A stretch of DNA of 64,000 bases. It comes from a virus. Made by a program: the position numbers and the translations under genes. Under the pieces are notes generated by a model. The model did not search any database, was not told the DNA's origin, and saw only the letters and a list, made by a program, of their open reading frames with translations. The DNA lies in IMG/VR virus record IMGVR_UViG_3300050821_017216, positions 1-64,000 of that record; one strand, given 5' to 3'. Shown here in pieces: positions 16,258-25,826 of the stretch (its first letter is position 1; the number at the start of each line of letters is the position of its first letter).

Positions 16258-16496
16258 CACGGATCCCTCGGTTCGCGCGCATACCACGATTTATCCGGTA
16301 CGCCGCAGTGCGAGTTGAACCGGGCCGCCGCCCGGTTGAGTAAAACGATCGCTTGCGCCAACTCCGACACCGCCTCGTCCGAGTGGGAGGACTCCATCAC
16401 GCGAGCCGACGGAATGGCACACCGGGACACTCGAGCCGCTTCCTGCAGCTCACGCGCTACGTCGCCCAACGTCCTGCTGCGCGCGTCGCCGGTCAT
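16257..16496 (-). CDS. Hypothetical protein, 79 aa
   Basis: I start at ATG 16496, which overlaps the ParB-like gene's stop (ATGA); a longer frame is unlikely. Helical, with TLGDVARELQEAARV and EAVSELAQAIVLLNRAAARF. Not recognised. Confidence 0.6.
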   Translation of the reverse strand: MTGDARSRTLGDVARELQEAARVSRCAIPSARVMESSHSDEAVSELAQAIVLLNRAAARFNSHCGVPDKSWYAREPRDP

Positions 16497-17422
16497 CCGG
16501 CCGCTCGCGCTGGTTCGTTGCGCCACTCTCCCGCGCGGATGCGCTCCGGGATGGCGGCCGGCGACCCGTCCCAGTTCTCGTCGCCGTTCCACGTGCGCTC
16601 GATCCACGCGGCGATGGCCTCCGCCGCGCCGTCCTCGACCTTCTTGAGATCTCTCACGGGCAGGGGGGTCGCCGACGGCGGCTCCCCGCCGCCGACGAGC
16701 TTCGGCTCGGGGAGACCCATGACCTCTCGGGCCTTTCTGGCGTTCGGGTTGCGCTTCTTGCCCGGCACCCGTGGCGCCTCGGCGAGCAGCTTCGCGAGCT
16801 TCGTGCGCGCCCCATCCGGCTCCTCACGCGCCAGCCTGTAAGCGTCCGAGACGGAGATCTTGCCCGCGTCGAGCGCGTTCCGTACGACCGCGGGCGCGTC
16901 GAGCAGCTTGAGCAGGCTCTTGACGGTCGACTCGCTCGCGCCGAGCAGGGCCGCCACCTCCTTCTCGTCGTGGCCGAGGTTGATGTACCGCTGAGCTTTG
17001 AGCGCGCGGTGCATCGGCGTGTCCGCCCGGCGGTGCTCGTTGGTGGTGATCATCATCGCCATCCGCTGCGACGCGTTCACCCGCTTGAGGTGTACCGGCA
17101 GCCGGAGCAGGGGCAGCCCCTGCTTCTTGAGGCGCTTGTTCGCCTCGCGACACGCCTTGGTGCGCTGCCTGCCGTCGGTGATCTCGATCTTGCCCGTCTC
17201 GGGGTTACGCGACCCGTTGAGGATCTCAAGGACCCCCTGCGGGGTCGCGCCGTCCGGCGCGTACATCATGCTGGCGACGAGCGCCTCGTCGAAGTCGTAG
17301 TGCACGCGCTCGTCGTAGACCGGCGAGTTCTTGTCCTCGACGAGGACGACGTCGTTCGGGTCGAAGTACCAGACGTCGGTCTTACCCTTCGCCTTGAGTG
17401 CGTCTCTCGATTGCTTCGGCAT
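16493..17422 (-). CDS. ParB-like nuclease-fold DNA-binding protein, 309 aa
   Basis: The N-terminal domain contains ITDGRQRTKACREANKRL, the ParB/Srx-type GxxR box, followed by an HTH near residues 155-180 (HDEKEVAALLGASESTVKSLLKLL) and a long charged C-terminus with PGKKRNPNARKAREVMGLP. Such proteins act in partition, regulation or methylation-linked functions in phages. It lies directly downstream of a dam-like gene, as is frequent. Confidence 0.75.
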   Translation of the reverse strand: MPKQSRDALKAKGKTDVWYFDPNDVVLVEDKNSPVYDERVHYDFDEALVASMMYAPDGATPQGVLEILNGSRNPETGKIEITDGRQRTKACREANKRLKKQGLPLLRLPVHLKRVNASQRMAMMITTNEHRRADTPMHRALKAQRYINLGHDEKEVAALLGASESTVKSLLKLLDAPAVVRNALDAGKISVSDAYRLAREEPDGARTKLAKLLAEAPRVPGKKRNPNARKAREVMGLPEPKLVGGGEPPSATPLPVRDLKKVEDGAAEAIAAWIERTWNGDENWDGSPAAIPERIRAGEWRNEPARAAG

Positions 17423-17461: not shown

Positions 17462-18313
17462 TCACCAGATGAGGAGCTCGCCGACCGCCCCGCGCTTACC
17501 GGCCTTGCTGTTGATGTTCCGTCTCGCCTCCACCCGCTGCACGTCGAAGCCCTCATAGAGCCTGCGCACGCTCAGGTGGTCGGCGTTGGAGAGCAGTACG
17601 CGCACGCCTTGCTTCTTGAGTCGGCGCGCGCAGGACGCGAGCCGCTCCTGGTCGGTCCAGTCGAACCCCCCTGACGTGTACCCGGTGAAGCTGCTGCTCG
17701 CGCTCACCGGCACGTACGGACAGTCGAAGTAGACGAAGTCGCCCGCCCGAGCGTGCGCCATCACCGACGCGAAGTCGCCGCGCGCGAGCTCCACGCCCTG
17801 CAGCGCGACCGAGCAGGCGCGCAGGTTCGCCTCGTCGCAGATCGTCGGGTTCGCGTACCGGCCGATCGGGACGTTGAACTTGCCCGCCCGATTGACGCGG
17901 TGGAGGCCGTTGAAACAGGTACGGTTCAGGTAGATCGCCCGCGCCGCGATGGCGAGTCTCGACGTCGGAGACTGCTCGCGCACGGCGTAGTAGTGCTCCA
18001 CCGAGTGCTTGGCGGTGTGAGACATGAGCGCGGCGATGAGGTCATCGACGTCGTCGCGGACGGTCTCGTATGCCATCATCCAGTGGATGTTGGCGTCTCC
18101 CAGATAGCCGTCGCGTCCGTGTACCCGACCGGCTTCGTAGAGGTCGAAGAAGAGGGCACCACCCCCGACGAACGGCTCGAAGTACCGCCTGAACGACGCG
18201 GGCACGTGCTCGCGGATCTCTGGCAAGAGTGAGCGCTTCCCACCTGCTGACTTCAAGAACGGTGCAGCGTGGGTTGGTTGTTCCACGCCGATGGCGGCGG
18301 TCGATCGACTCAT
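17462..18313 (-). CDS. dam: Dam-type DNA adenine N6-methyltransferase
   Basis: 283 aa. SAGGKRSLLPEI (22-33), FEPFVGGGALFFDL (45-58) and DCPY (197-200) are the motif X, I and IV of D12-class adenine methyltransferases; RAIYLNRTCFNGLHRVN is also typical. Target is probably GATC, but the recognition residues cannot settle this. Phage Dam enzymes protect the genome or regulate packaging and replication. Confidence 0.9.
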   Translation of the reverse strand: MSRSTAAIGVEQPTHAAPFLKSAGGKRSLLPEIREHVPASFRRYFEPFVGGGALFFDLYEAGRVHGRDGYLGDANIHWMMAYETVRDDVDDLIAALMSHTAKHSVEHYYAVREQSPTSRLAIAARAIYLNRTCFNGLHRVNRAGKFNVPIGRYANPTICDEANLRACSVALQGVELARGDFASVMAHARAGDFVYFDCPYVPVSASSSFTGYTSGGFDWTDQERLASCARRLKKQGVRVLLSNADHLSVRRLYEGFDVQRVEARRNINSKAGKRGAVGELLIW

Positions 18314-18600
18314 CGTAACCTCAGGTCTCTACCGATGGTCGTCCGGACCACCTCGGCGAACTCCGTCCCGGTCAGCTTCCGCTTCACGCGCGCGAGCGCG
18401 CGCTCGGCCCACTCGCGCTGCCTGTCAGTCAGGCCGTACGCGTCGTCGCCGTACTCCTCGGCGCGCTCGCGCAGCCTGTCGAGCATCTCCGCGAAGACGC
18501 CCGCCTCGTACGGGTCCAAGTCGGTACGCGCGAGCACGCGCTCGAGGAGGTCGACGTCGTCCAGGTCCGCGACGTCGACCTCCCGCCTGCGCCGGGGCAT
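18310..18600 (-). CDS. Hypothetical protein, 96 aa
   Basis: Charged helical protein (DVDLLERVLARTDLDPYEAGVFAEMLDRL) with TDRQREWAERALARVKRK. ATG at 18600 shares a base with the upstream TGA. Sits between a Dam enzyme and the recombination genes; unassigned. Confidence 0.6.
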   Translation of the reverse strand: MPRRRREVDVADLDDVDLLERVLARTDLDPYEAGVFAEMLDRLRERAEEYGDDAYGLTDRQREWAERALARVKRKLTGTEFAEVVRTTIGRDLRLR

Positions 18601-19127
18601 CAGAACGGTGCTTTGGGCACCCCGCTGACGCCGGTGCCGTTGGCGCCAGCCGCCCCGCCGAGGTTGACGGGCCGACCGAGCGTCGCCTGGATGTTCGCGG
18701 CGAACTCCTTGCCTCCGCCCGGCATCGGGTTCGACGTGTGGAAGACGCCGCCGCCCGACAGGATCGACACGCGGATGCGCCACTTGCCGTCGTAGAACTC
18801 CCACTTCAGCTCGACGTCGACCTCATTCGAGTCGATGCCGGCGAGCGTCGTGATGTCCGCGCAGCCGAGCGCGCGCAACCGCTCCTCGGAGTACGGGGCG
18901 GCGTCCGGCGAGAAGTAGAGCGGCGAGACGAACGCGCGCTGCAGGTCCGGCAGGTAGAGGTGGACGAGCAGCTCCGGCGTGTTCTTGGAGCTCTTGCCGA
19001 ACTCGTGCGGGGCGCCGGTCGCGTCGGGCGTAACGGCCTTGGCCTTGTACCGGCCCTCCTTGGGCTCGGTCGGCTTCGCGGTGGGGGACGCTTGGGGCGC
19101 CGGGGGTACGGGGGGTGTGTTGCTCAT
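18600..19127 (-). CDS. Possible ssDNA-binding-associated protein, 175 aa
   Basis: Pro-rich start, then beta-rich stretches (PELLVHLYLPDLQRAFVSPLYF, EVDVELKWEFYDGKWRIRVSIL) and a Gly/Ala-rich tail ending in F. It lies immediately downstream of the Sak4-like ATPase, where phages often place an SSB or DUF669-type protein. The link is by position and composition only; no OB-fold signature is certain. Confidence 0.55.
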   Translation of the reverse strand: MSNTPPVPPAPQASPTAKPTEPKEGRYKAKAVTPDATGAPHEFGKSSKNTPELLVHLYLPDLQRAFVSPLYFSPDAAPYSEERLRALGCADITTLAGIDSNEVDVELKWEFYDGKWRIRVSILSGGGVFHTSNPMPGGGKEFAANIQATLGRPVNLGGAAGANGTGVSGVPKAPF

Positions 19128-19179: not shown

Positions 19180-20112
19180 TCACGCGGCGGCGGGTGCGGG
19201 CTTGTCCGCGTCGGTGGATCCCTGCTTCGAGTTGAGCCGGATCTGCACGCGGTTGAACGCGTCGACCAGGCCGGCGGGGTACTGCTTGATCCAGTCGCGC
19301 ACGACCTTCTCGAACGCCTTGTCGCCGATCTCGGCGAGCATCGCGTCGAGCTCCTTCCTCATCTGGTCGCCGCGCGTGTCGTCCTCCTTGACGGCCCGCG
19401 CGAACTCGTCCCACGACAGCGGGAGCTTGTCCGGGAAGAGAGCCGTGCCGCGCGCCTTCGCGTCGTAGGCCGGCATGCGCTTGGTGTAGATCCACCGCTC
19501 GCCGGTGGTCGAGACCTTGGCGGGCTTGCCCTTCTCCACCACGGCGTGCGTCACGTTCTCGCGCGCGAAGAAGACATAGTCGCTCCAGCCCTTGAGCAGG
19601 GCGGCCACCTGCTTCCTGCACGCCAGCTCGAACCGCTCGTAGCCGGGACCCGTCGGGTCCTCGAACTTCTGCACCTTGGCGTGCGCGATGAAGATGATCC
19701 CCTTGCCGCTCATCCAGACGCGCTCGACCTGCGCGAGCAGGCGCCGCCACTCCATGACGGCGACGTCGTCCCCCTTGCCGTACCCGCCCTCGTACTTGGT
19801 GATCGTGCTGTTCGGGAAGAGCTTCGCGTGGCTCATGATCTCGAAGTCCGAGAGCACGTCGAGCGCGACGTTGTCGCACTTGACTTGCCCGTGCTCGATG
19901 GCCTCGAGCCAGTCGAACGTCTCGTCCCACGAGTCGATCTCGACGCGCTCGACGTCGAGCTTCGAGCTCCCCTTGTTGGCGTCGAGGAAGAACACGTTCG
20001 GTGCCCCCGCCGCCATCGTAGTCTTACCTACACCCTCGAACCCGTAGAGGACCACGCGCGGCGGCCGCGTGACCTTGCCCTTGACGATCCGTTTCAAGTC
20101 GACTGCTGCCAT
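19180..20112 (-). CDS. Sak4-like RecA-fold ATPase (AAA_24 type)
   Basis: 310 aa. Walker A GFEGVGKTT at 24-32 follows the VVLYG strand, and VFFLDANKGSSKLDV is the typical next strand. GKGIIFIAHAKVQKFEDPTGPGYERFELACRK marks the Sak4/AAA_24 phage ATPases, single-strand annealing-type recombinases that work with SSB. The nuclease directly upstream would supply the resection step. Confidence 0.78.
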   Translation of the reverse strand: MAAVDLKRIVKGKVTRPPRVVLYGFEGVGKTTMAAGAPNVFFLDANKGSSKLDVERVEIDSWDETFDWLEAIEHGQVKCDNVALDVLSDFEIMSHAKLFPNSTITKYEGGYGKGDDVAVMEWRRLLAQVERVWMSGKGIIFIAHAKVQKFEDPTGPGYERFELACRKQVAALLKGWSDYVFFARENVTHAVVEKGKPAKVSTTGERWIYTKRMPAYDAKARGTALFPDKLPLSWDEFARAVKEDDTRGDQMRKELDAMLAEIGDKAFEKVVRDWIKQYPAGLVDAFNRVQIRLNSKQGSTDADKPAPAAA

Positions 20113-20114
20113 CT

Positions 20115-21167
20115 CTACACCTCCGCCCCGGTCGCGGGAGTCGAACCCGCCGCAGGCTGCCTGTCAGCACCGGGCGCGCCGAGCCACTCGCGCGGGTCAC
20201 CCTCGTAGATCGCGTCCATCTTGCCGGCCAGCCGGAACGTGCGCGACGTCGCCCCCGTCTCCGGGTTGACCAGGTCTACCTCGAACTGCGACTCCACCGC
20301 GACGATGCCGCGCGTGGCGTCGCCCCAGCGCGCCACGTAGCCGACGATCATCGCCCGCTCGCGCTGGTAGTCGTACGGGTCCTCGCGGTCGAGCGCGAGT
20401 AGGGCCTCGTCGAGCGACTTGCCCCTGCGAAGGGCCTCGACGGCCCGGTGCACGCTCGACCCGGTCCGCAGCGCCTCGGACCGAAGCACCGGTCGCATGT
20501 GCAGGATGTATCGGATCTGGTAGCGGCGCGGGCACGCGCGGAACGTGCGCATGCTCGACTGCGTGAGCACCACGCGGTCGGTCTCGAAGACGTCCTCGAG
20601 CTCCTCGTGCTCCTTGTCCTCGCGTCGGAATAGGAGCGGGTCGTCGAGCGGCACGTCCCCGCAGCACGCGGGCAGGAAGTCGCACGCGCGGCTCCACTGG
20701 AAGCACGAGTCGGGGTTGCGGGGATAGACGTTCAGGCGGCGCGCCTCGCGCATCGTCTGCGCCGTCTGCCAGACGTCGACCGCGCCGTCGTGCTGCTCCT
20801 GGAACAGGCGCACGGGGAGCGCCCGCTGGTAGTACGCGTCCGGCTCCGCGGCGATGGCTGCCAGGCAGCGCGCGCCGTACTCCTCAGGCGTCTCGTCGCG
20901 CTCGCGCTGGTTGGCGTAGAGGCGCGGCGTCGGTTCCTTCTTGGTTGGCTGGGTGTACTTGCGCGACTCGAGCGGCGTAGCCTTCAGCGGCCGCAGGGCG
21001 ACCTTGCCCAGGACGTCATAGCCTATGCCGGCGGGGTCAAGACCCTTCTGCACCGCGGCGCGCAGGTAGACGCCGATCTGGGGATCCATCCGGATTCGAC
21101 GCCAGTAATTCGACCCAGGCATGATGTCCTCGCCGGAGGTCTTCGTCTCGAGGATGAGGAGCGACAT
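20115..21167 (-). CDS. Circularly permuted PD-(D/E)XK (RecB/Cas4-like) nuclease, 350 aa
   Basis: The halves of the fold are swapped. Residues 1-180 hold what is normally the C-terminal half: ETK (E7, K9), YWRRIRMDPQI (QxxxY box), RPLKATP, and cysteines C155, C162 and C168/C169. Residues 198-320 hold the normal N-terminal half: SSMRTFRACPRRYQIRY (C212), SSVHRAVEALRRG, AVESQFEV, and GKMDAI (D318). All catalytic and Fe-S-type residues are present, so the fold could still close. The last 25 residues after GDPREW look unselected and overlap a tRNA-like T-arm. Confidence 0.78.
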   Translation of the reverse strand: MSLLILETKTSGEDIMPGSNYWRRIRMDPQIGVYLRAAVQKGLDPAGIGYDVLGKVALRPLKATPLESRKYTQPTKKEPTPRLYANQRERDETPEEYGARCLAAIAAEPDAYYQRALPVRLFQEQHDGAVDVWQTAQTMREARRLNVYPRNPDSCFQWSRACDFLPACCGDVPLDDPLLFRREDKEHEELEDVFETDRVVLTQSSMRTFRACPRRYQIRYILHMRPVLRSEALRTGSSVHRAVEALRRGKSLDEALLALDREDPYDYQRERAMIVGYVARWGDATRGIVAVESQFEVDLVNPETGATSRTFRLAGKMDAIYEGDPREWLGAPGADRQPAAGSTPATGAEV

Positions 21168-21367
21168 CAGACTTTAGCCTCACGCTCGAAGCGTCCAAGA
21201 ATGTACGCCACGTACGTCTTCCTTCTACGAGCCTGCCGATTCAAACGGTCGGCCCGACGCTGGGCTGATTGGAATGGGTACTTGCACACCACACCTTTAT
21301 TGTCCTTCAAAAACTCGAGGGATGTGTCGGTTTCCTTGATGATGCCATACAGGTCATCTGCCATCAT
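21167..21367 (-). CDS. Hypothetical protein, 66 aa
   Basis: Begins MMADDLYGIIKETDTSLEFL and ends in a basic helix (RRADRLNRQARRRK). Start overlaps the upstream stop (ATGA). Base composition is a little less GC-rich than neighbours. Not recognised. Confidence 0.6.
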   Translation of the reverse strand: MMADDLYGIIKETDTSLEFLKDNKGVVCKYPFQSAQRRADRLNRQARRRKTYVAYILGRFEREAKV

Positions 21368-23584: not shown

Positions 23585-24075
23585 GCCGGCACGGAAGCGA
23601 TAATCCGAACTATCGTCACGGCCACGGAGCCAACGGCAACCCGTCACCTACGTACCGTGTATGGGTCAAGATGCTGGCCCGCGTGAGAGGTACAGCCGAC
23701 AGACGCTTAGAAAAGAGACGAAATTACGACCTACGCGGCATCACCGTATGTGCTCGTTGGCTAAAGTTCGAGAACTTTCTAGCGGACATGGGTGAGAGAC
23801 CATCCCTCAAGCATTCCATCGACCGCAAGAACAACAACAATGGATATTCGAAGTCGAACTGCCGCTGGGCCACGATGAAAGAGCAATTACGCAACAAAAG
23901 AAACAACCATCGCGTATGTGCTTTTGGAAAAAATCTTACAATCTCTGAGTGGGTTGAGATTACAGGAATACAATACGCTACAATTAGAGGCCGCGTTAGA
24001 TCTGGCTGGCATCCAGAGAGGGCCCTAACTGAAAGTGTAAAACCTTGGCACGGGCATAGACGGAGGAGCGCGTGA
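23581..24075 (+). CDS. HNH-type homing endonuclease, 164 aa
   Basis: SIDRKNNNNGYSKSNCRWATMKEQLRNKRNN (about 79-109) is the core of the HNH/AP2-associated phage endonucleases, with the N-x2-CRWAT signature; the C-terminus has an HTH-like segment (TISEWVEITGIQYATIRGRV). Clearly less GC-rich than its neighbours (many AAT, AAA, ACA codons), a sign of transfer. It is inserted just before the SF2 helicase gene, a plausible homing target. Confidence 0.82.
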   Translation: MSRHGSDNPNYRHGHGANGNPSPTYRVWVKMLARVRGTADRRLEKRRNYDLRGITVCARWLKFENFLADMGERPSLKHSIDRKNNNNGYSKSNCRWATMKEQLRNKRNNHRVCAFGKNLTISEWVEITGIQYATIRGRVRSGWHPERALTESVKPWHGHRRRSA

Positions 24076-25826
24076 GCCTCCCACTCTTCGGCTCAACCGC
24101 GCTCATGCAGGACAAGCCGCCCAAGAAGCTGCGCCCGTACCAGTCGCGCGCGCTCGTGGAGGTTCGCACGCGGGTGCTGCTTGGCAAGAAACGGATCCTC
24201 TGCGTGTCTCCGACCGGTTCCGGGAAAACCGTCCTGCTCGCGGCCATCATCAAGTCAGCGACGCTGCCGGTACTCTTCGTGGCCCACCGCAAGGAGATCT
24301 TGGACCAGTGCGTGCGGCAGCTGGCCAACCAGGGGATCACCCACGTGGGCGTCATCCGCGGGAACGACGCGCGCTACGACCCTTCGGCGTCCGTGCAGGT
24401 CGGGAGCATCGCCACACTCACGCGCCGAGACAAGCCGTTTTTAGGCAAGCAAGTTATTGTAATCATTGATGAATGTCACAGATCTGCGAGTGACTCGTAT
24501 GTCGAGCTTCTGTCCCACTACCCGGACGCCATCGTCCTCGGCTTCACCGCGACACCCATCCGACTCGACGGGCGCCCGCTCGGCGGCGACCTATTCGAGG
24601 AGATCGTGCAGGTCGCGACGTACGCGGAGCTGCTCAAGCACCCGGAGTGGCTCGTCGCGCCCGACGTCTTCGCCGGCAGCGAGGTGGCTGACCTGTCGCG
24701 CGTGCGCAAGAGCGGGTCCGACTTCGACGAGGACCAGCTCGCGCAGGTGATGCGCGCCGACCGGCTCGAGGGTAACGTCGTCGAGACCTGGCTGAAGCGA
24801 GCGCACCTGCACCCCGTCTTCAACAAGGGGGTCCGCGTGCCGGGGAAGTTCACCGAGGGTGAGAGGCGACGCACGATCGTGTTCGCGGTCAACATCGAGC
24901 ACTCGCTGTCGCTCGCGGAGCGGTTCGGGCGCGCGGGTGTTCGTGTCGCGCACCTCGATGGCAACACACCCGAGCCAGAGCGCGATCGGATACTCAGCGA
25001 CCTCGCCTCGGGGCGGCTCGAGGTCGTCACCAACTGCTTGGTAGCCGTCGAGGGGATCGACATCCAGGAGATCAAGTGCGTCGTGAGCGCTCGTCCGACG
25101 ATGAGCATGACCGCGTGGAGGCAGCAGTGCGGGCGCGAGATGCGCCCGTGGTGCGGCGTCGTCCCGCTCCTGCTCGACCACGCCGGGAACTTCGACCGCC
25201 TGGGCTGCCCGTTCGAGGACGTCGTCTGGTCCCTCAAAGATCGCCCGAAGCGTGTGGGTGGTCAGGAGATGCAGCGCAAGTGCCCGGCGTGCGGCGGCTA
25301 CGTCGGCGTGTCACGCACGGTCTGCCCGCACTGCGGCGCGGAGATCCCCCGCCAGGAGCGGCCGCTCAGCGAGAGCGACGGGGAGCTCCGCGAGCGGCAG
25401 ACCGAGCCCGAGGCGCTCAAGTGGGCGTTCTTCTGGCGGCAGGTCGTCATGGCCAAGAGCAAGGGGTTCAAACCGGGTTTCGCGAGCGCGATCTACAAGG
25501 ATCGCTACGGCAGCTGGCCTCCCAGGCACTGGTCGGAGAAGATCAAGGTGGACTTCGCGACCGACGGTCTCTGGCAGAGCCTCCTCGAGCGGCGCCTGCA
25601 GCGCAAGGCGCAGCGCGAGGCGCAGGAGGCCCGCGAGGAGCGGGCACTGAGTGAGACGGCGGCCTCGGAGGAGGTGTCCGAGGTAGAGCTCGCGATGGAG
25701 CGCACCGTGGAAGCGTTTGACATGCCGATCGACGACGTACCGGTCGTGGAGCAGGATCGCGGCGAGTCACCGTTCAGCGACTGGCTCGAGGGCGAGGGCG
25801 TAGCCTCTGGAGAGGAACCGTTCTGA
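24072..25826 (+). CDS. SF2 DNA/RNA helicase with zinc finger, 584 aa
   Basis: Walker A PTGSGKT (47-53), DECH (133-136), GFTATP, and a second RecA domain ending with SMTAWRQQCGRE (motif VI-like Q/R-rich) mark a RecQ/RadD-like SF2 helicase. CPACGGYVGVSRTVCPHCG near 400 is a zinc ribbon as in RadD/YejH. The last 130 residues are charged. A short AT-rich patch (24440-24505) covers motif II. GTG start overlaps the upstream stop. Likely unwinding of recombination or repair intermediates. Confidence 0.82.
   Translation: MSLPLFGSTALMQDKPPKKLRPYQSRALVEVRTRVLLGKKRILCVSPTGSGKTVLLAAIIKSATLPVLFVAHRKEILDQCVRQLANQGITHVGVIRGNDARYDPSASVQVGSIATLTRRDKPFLGKQVIVIIDECHRSASDSYVELLSHYPDAIVLGFTATPIRLDGRPLGGDLFEEIVQVATYAELLKHPEWLVAPDVFAGSEVADLSRVRKSGSDFDEDQLAQVMRADRLEGNVVETWLKRAHLHPVFNKGVRVPGKFTEGERRRTIVFAVNIEHSLSLAERFGRAGVRVAHLDGNTPEPERDRILSDLASGRLEVVTNCLVAVEGIDIQEIKCVVSARPTMSMTAWRQQCGREMRPWCGVVPLLLDHAGNFDRLGCPFEDVVWSLKDRPKRVGGQEMQRKCPACGGYVGVSRTVCPHCGAEIPRQERPLSESDGELRERQTEPEALKWAFFWRQVVMAKSKGFKPGFASAIYKDRYGSWPPRHWSEKIKVDFATDGLWQSLLERRLQRKAQREAQEAREERALSETAASEEVSEVELAMERTVEAFDMPIDDVPVVEQDRGESPFSDWLEGEGVASGEEPF

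Follow-up and report, generated by a model that had tools for sequence, protein, structure and literature searches.

The order of motifs in one predicted soil-phage nuclease raises the question whether the two halves of its chain have been exchanged by a natural circular permutation, and if so, how often and by what route such an exchange has taken place. The gene lies in the 64,000-nucleotide stretch of viral DNA analysed here (the window), which is taken from a 119,899-base IMG/VR virus record. On the minus strand, positions 20115–21167 form an open frame which translates as 350 amino acids without stop or frameshift. The start codon and the stop of a small ORF upstream overlap (TGATG, 21165–21169); at the other end, two bases separate the stop codon from the ATG of the Sak4-like ATPase gene that follows. 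Along the chain, E7 and K9 (ETK), Q30–Y34 (QxxxY), C155, C162 and C168 are followed by C212, H240, the VESQFEV segment and D318. An earlier note, made from the letters of the window, had described the frame and its translation in the same way and had read the product as a circularly permuted PD-(D/E)XK nuclease.

BLASTP comparisons were carried out between the window protein and relatives of canonical order. Residues 3–193 correspond to residues 177–361 of the canonical relative L028 (52%, E=2.8e-63), and residues 200–320 to residues 43–168 of the same protein (45%, E=3.1e-27). Two segments in one chain are thus homologous to a relative in swapped positions, as in a natural circular permutation. 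The same swapped pattern was obtained with canonical L042, L156 and the Archangium MAG L021. Pfam recognizes half of the protein alone, positions 2–134 of the 247 in PDDEXK_1 aligning with residues 201–323. When the two halves were re-set in canonical order, the search retrieved exonucleases of the phages FF47, Lebethron, PMBT14 and others, which are missed with the native order; in the three named phages, the exonuclease gene immediately precedes one annotated as Sak4. The swap in the window protein is far beyond chance. The standard linear order in PF12705 is H, D, ExK, QxxxY and Cys triad, and the window protein does not follow it. As its order is rotated, the protein is to be viewed as a permuted derivative of the Cas4/RecB-like PF12705 exonucleases and not as a standard member.

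Structure prediction, proposed in the earlier note as a check, revealed the same elements as in a canonical protein, in rotated order. The AlphaFold model of the window protein, built from 12 permuted homologues, is of medium confidence only (pLDDT 80, pTM 0.75), with a low-confidence stretch at residues 192–196 and pLDDT below 50 at 332–350; the model of canonical L042 reached pLDDT 93 and pTM 0.87. In these models, the helices and strands of the window protein run in canonical order when followed from its ExK strand, with the elements of the old N-terminal part coming last. The new ends lie in the loop of the hairpin formed by the D-strand and the ExK strand, beside the active site. The models and the canonical homologues support the cut site given in the earlier note, which separates the Asp strand from the ExK strand. 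Against the PDB, the L042 model matched the Cas4-family ACE1 and AddB (E about 3e-7). With the window model, an order-bound Foldseek search of the PDB gave nothing below E=0.2, as expected for a rotated chain in a search of this kind, and its sequence had no match among PDB entries. In a chain-order search, the window model matched viral PD-(D/E)XK models (E=2e-12). Order-bound tools thus misread rotated proteins, Pfam seeing one half and Foldseek finding nothing in the PDB, and more permuted nucleases may be hidden in viral data.

Features of the permuted exonuclease and its neighbours in the window
Feature	Position	Strand	Basis
Circularly permuted Cas4/RecB-like PD-(D/E)XK exonuclease, 350 aa, order C1-C2-N1-N2	20115..21167	-	
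Former C-terminal half, residues 1–193: ExK strand, QxxxY helix, Cys cluster, HEEL end	20589..21167	-	BLASTP vs L028
ExK motif, E7-T-K9	21141..21149	-	Conservation in aligned homologues
QxxxY motif, Q30–Y34	21066..21080	-	Invariant, 99 aligned homologues
Cys triad C155-x6-C162-x5-C168, putative Fe-S ligands	20664..20705	-	Invariant in all permuted rows
New linker, old C-terminus to old N-terminus, residues 194–199	20571..20588	-	Low-confidence model stretch 192–196
Former N-terminal half, residues 200–322: fourth Cys, GxxxH, VESQFEV, GKMDAI	20202..20570	-	BLASTP vs L028; Pfam PF12705
C212 (ACPRRYQ), putative fourth Fe-S ligand	20532..20534	-	C in 99/99 rows
H240 (GxxxH motif)	20448..20450	-	H in 98/99 rows
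D318, predicted catalytic Asp of GKMDAI	20214..20216	-	D in 98/99 rows, other row a gap
Added C-terminal tail, residues 323–350, mostly disordered, window-clade specific	20118..20201	-	pLDDT; varies among relatives
Sak4-like recombinase/annealing ATPase, next downstream	19180..20112	-	phrog_124 E=4.5e-39; Pfam AAA_24
Putative single-stranded DNA binding protein (SSB)	18600..19127	-	Position; Tunturi_1 gene at same place annotated SSB
Small ORF upstream, 66 aa	21167..21367	-	Stop overlaps exonuclease start

To follow the rotation through the family, four segment HMMs were used: N1 (Cys and GxxxH), N2 (helix to GKxD), C1 (ExK to QxxxY) and C2 (Cys triad). Every open frame in the retrieved loci was searched with them, and distinct complete ORFs were counted. 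The total of 149 comprises 84 ORFs of canonical order N1-N2-C1-C2, 44 of order N2-C1-C2-N1 and 21 of the window type, C1-C2-N1-N2; the remaining HMM matches are in frames truncated at a contig end or in sequences that have diverged too far for at least one of the HMMs. Relatives with the unpermuted order, which the earlier note had suggested looking for, are thus found among these 84 ORFs as well as in FF47, Lebethron and PMBT14. Three of the four cyclic rotations occur, and no further segment order was present among the 149 complete ORFs. The N2-first members include the isolated phages Tunturi_1 and Tunturi_2 and the Anaeromyxobacter oryzisoli contig L020; a viral scan using the Tunturi protein alone found nothing. 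The 94-kb contig IMGVR_UViG_3300020229_000001 carries two N2-first exonuclease loci (L122 and L129), separated by about 60 kb. Members of different rotation can be close relatives: N2-first L020 and canonical L042 are 68% identical overall (67–69% per segment), and L068 and L156 share 67% identity. With relatives in three rotated versions, the swap is real and has occurred more than once in phages.

Of the 149 family ORFs, 146 are followed by a Sak4 gene on the same strand; for the other three, no Sak4 match lay within the stretch of sequence examined. The window gene fits this module in that it precedes Sak4 in the same orientation, and its immediate neighbours are Sak4 and replication/recombination genes, as judged by Pfam and PHROG searches. 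The product of 18600–19127(-) has no Pfam or PHROG match. Distant canonical phage exonucleases likewise adjoin Sak4-like genes, and the canonical order is therefore taken as ancestral.

Several other features were seen around the locus. A D12 class N6-adenine DNA methyltransferase (17462–18313, -) and a ParB-like gene (16493–17422, -) are found near the recombination module, and Tunturi_1 also carries a DNA methyltransferase some genes downstream. The Sak4 and DEAD-helicase genes of the 92%-identical relative L003 (7047–9068 and 1096–3930) look intein-interrupted, with inserts ending in ...HN-T and ...HN-S, unlike the window copies of Sak4 (19180–20112) and DEAD-helicase (24072–25826), which are uninterrupted. 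Within the tail of the exonuclease gene, just ahead of the Sak4 ribosome site, is a T-arm-like hairpin, GCGGG-TTCGACT-CCCGC (20134–20150, -). Four relatives preserve its stem, one G-C pair being replaced by A-T in L005. A tRNA or tmRNA at the 3′ end of the exonuclease gene was discarded, ARAGORN and Rfam being negative; the region is not unusually stable, and T-arm-like motifs occur in the loci at background rate. The hairpin may be due to chance or may be a translational signal.

To estimate the number of rotations, the main tree was computed from 99 rows with the segments set in canonical order. In this tree, the rotations require five changes of order, C1-first members form one group (support 91/61), and N2-first members require four changes in the bootstrap trees. 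Trees from the C-half only and the N-half only gave six changes each; a larger quick tree also gave six, with C1-first members in one or two groups. One origin for all permuted forms is rejected by the AU test (p=0.0002), and the two cut sites imply two events. The scattered N2-first forms could instead go back to one old permutation per cut site, followed by recombinational spread and not by repeated rotation. With the C-half alone, one N2-first origin is not rejected (AU p=0.10), and the N1 segments of L020, L106 and L068 resemble one another, so that recombination may have carried rotated ends between lineages. With the whole alignment, however, a single N2-first origin is rejected (AU p=0.016); the four N2-first changes in the bootstrap trees and the similarity of L020 to canonical L042, even in every segment, also speak against spread from one permutation, which we consider rather unlikely. 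The most likely number of independent rotations is two as a minimum and probably about five, a count that recombination could lower.

The joints of the permuted chains bear on how the rotation arose. In all permuted forms listed, the gap between C2 and N1 is 8–16 residues, and new ends are found at two places only; comparison at the DNA level indicated that the N2-first starts of L020, L106 and L068 begin at the same point. General models for the origin of circular permutations have been reviewed (PMC3320104). As the likely route we infer tandem duplication of the whole gene, in-frame fusion of the copies and trimming of the outer parts, steps which would leave the former C-terminus joined in this way to the former N-terminus. 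The earlier note had offered the same origin; the clean joint fits and keeps it plausible, whereas its traces did not come to light. No fused dimer or half-trimmed form, as expected of duplication intermediates, was present among the 149 complete ORFs, an absence compatible with duplication, and a search for leftover second copies in the flanks of the loci gave chance-level matches only. Lack of both intermediates and relics would also suit a direct move of N1 (or N1-N2), either by cut-and-paste or by gene fission and fusion in the other order. Halves encoded as separate genes were likewise not found, bar frames cut by contig ends, and the clean joint and exclusively cyclic orders fit duplication equally well; direct relocation is a possible but doubtful course. 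We lean, by a little more than an even chance, towards recurrent natural permutation of a single-domain phage nuclease: independent lineages would have opened the chain again and again at one or the other of two surface loops, all three rotations would be functional today, and the phages' own Sak4/exonuclease recombination may have helped by producing tandem duplications of the locus.

Conservation and selection were analysed for the predicted active site. In the 99-row alignment, catalytic H, D, ExK and QxxxY are near invariant and the four cysteines are kept. Both E and K of ExK are present in 11/11 C1-first rows covering that point, one further row being cut before it; in N2-first rows, E is found in 28/29 (one D) and K in 29/29. 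The window protein has the four-Cys pattern of Cas4/RecB-like PF12705 proteins, with a single cysteine in the N-half and the other three in the C-half. These data agree with the view that active-site and Fe-S-type residues are retained; of the pair C168/C169 in the earlier note, C168 is conserved and C169 is not. Four window-clade genes gave dN/dS of 0.11–0.27. The window gene very probably encodes a functional, naturally circularly permuted Cas4/RecB-like (pfam12705) phage exonuclease working with the Sak4 annealing protein. Canonical homologues, structure models and conservation back the probable function that had been suggested before; from residues and neighbours, the protein is predicted to act as a nuclease, to bind an Fe-S cluster and to have Sak4 as its partner. 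The permuted chain would fold into the same RecB-type nuclease, with the metal placed by H240, D318, E7 and K9 and an Fe-S cluster held by C155, C162, C168 and C212. The enzyme would resect the ends of phage DNA and in this way supply Sak4 and the putative SSB with single strands. We propose that the family tolerates rotation because the old C-terminal and N-terminal regions would be held together by the cluster, so that joining these ends and opening another loop would cost little.

A real but decayed fusion, or a pseudogene lacking enzyme function, might be suspected from the tail, which is predicted to be disordered after about residue 331. It is very improbable given that catalytic residues and four cysteines are kept across permuted forms, that the frame has low dN/dS and no stop or frameshift, and that the gene is kept within the exonuclease-Sak4 operon. 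Re-ordering at the RNA or intein level was dropped, since a single open frame encodes both halves and the window gene has no intein. The same gene was found in other metagenome assemblies, with protein identities of 93% (L003/L004), 86% (L016–L018) and 81% (L005, its start cut by the contig end). More distant contigs (44–51% identity) have the same cut site as the window, and in every C1-first member with a readable start, the start codon precedes the ExK strand by a few codons. That two partial nuclease genes were joined artificially by misassembly, which the earlier note had named as its refutation and which might be feared as the window comes from one metagenomic virus contig, deserves next to no credence in view of these copies at 81–93% identity, the cut site shared by distant relatives, the tight packing with neighbouring genes at both ends, the purifying selection, and the second rotation in the isolates Tunturi_1/2.

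The window protein can thus be set beside known systems. Phage Cas4-like exonucleases of PF12705/PHROG 1218 (FF47, Lebethron, PMBT14) share its motifs and lie beside Sak4, but they are of canonical order while it is rotated, and homology is detectable once its halves are set in canonical order. Canonical L042, L028 and the uncultured Archangium MAG L021 have 37–52% identity to it in both halves and the same synteny, but the order N1-N2-C1-C2. The Tunturiibacter phages Tunturi_1 and Tunturi_2 and A. oryzisoli L020 carry permuted members of the same family (gp59 in Tunturi_1) with the same C-to-N joint, but in these, unlike the window protein, the chain is opened behind the GxxxH helix, giving N2-C1-C2-N1. 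In the main text of the Tunturi paper (PMC11924767), the word exonuclease does not occur and 'permut' is found only in statistical permutation tests; 'permut' is absent from a Cas4 phylogenomics paper (PMC5704561), and no earlier report of a permuted PD-(D/E)XK nuclease was found in the open literature searched. The AddB nuclease domain and Cas4-family ACE1 (PDB 4cei, 9iab, 9iac), the fold matched by the canonical relative, are not permuted, and their sequence similarity is very low. Circular permutation itself is already known; saposin/swaposin and DNA methyltransferases (PMC3320104) represent the same kind of evolutionary change. Unlike those cases, three rotations occur here in one single-domain phage nuclease family, some about 68% identical and probably of repeated origin. 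Such close natural relatives amount to a natural experiment on fold tolerance and on the origin of the swap, and the cross-rotation pairs at 68% identity are near enough for studying the rotation step itself.
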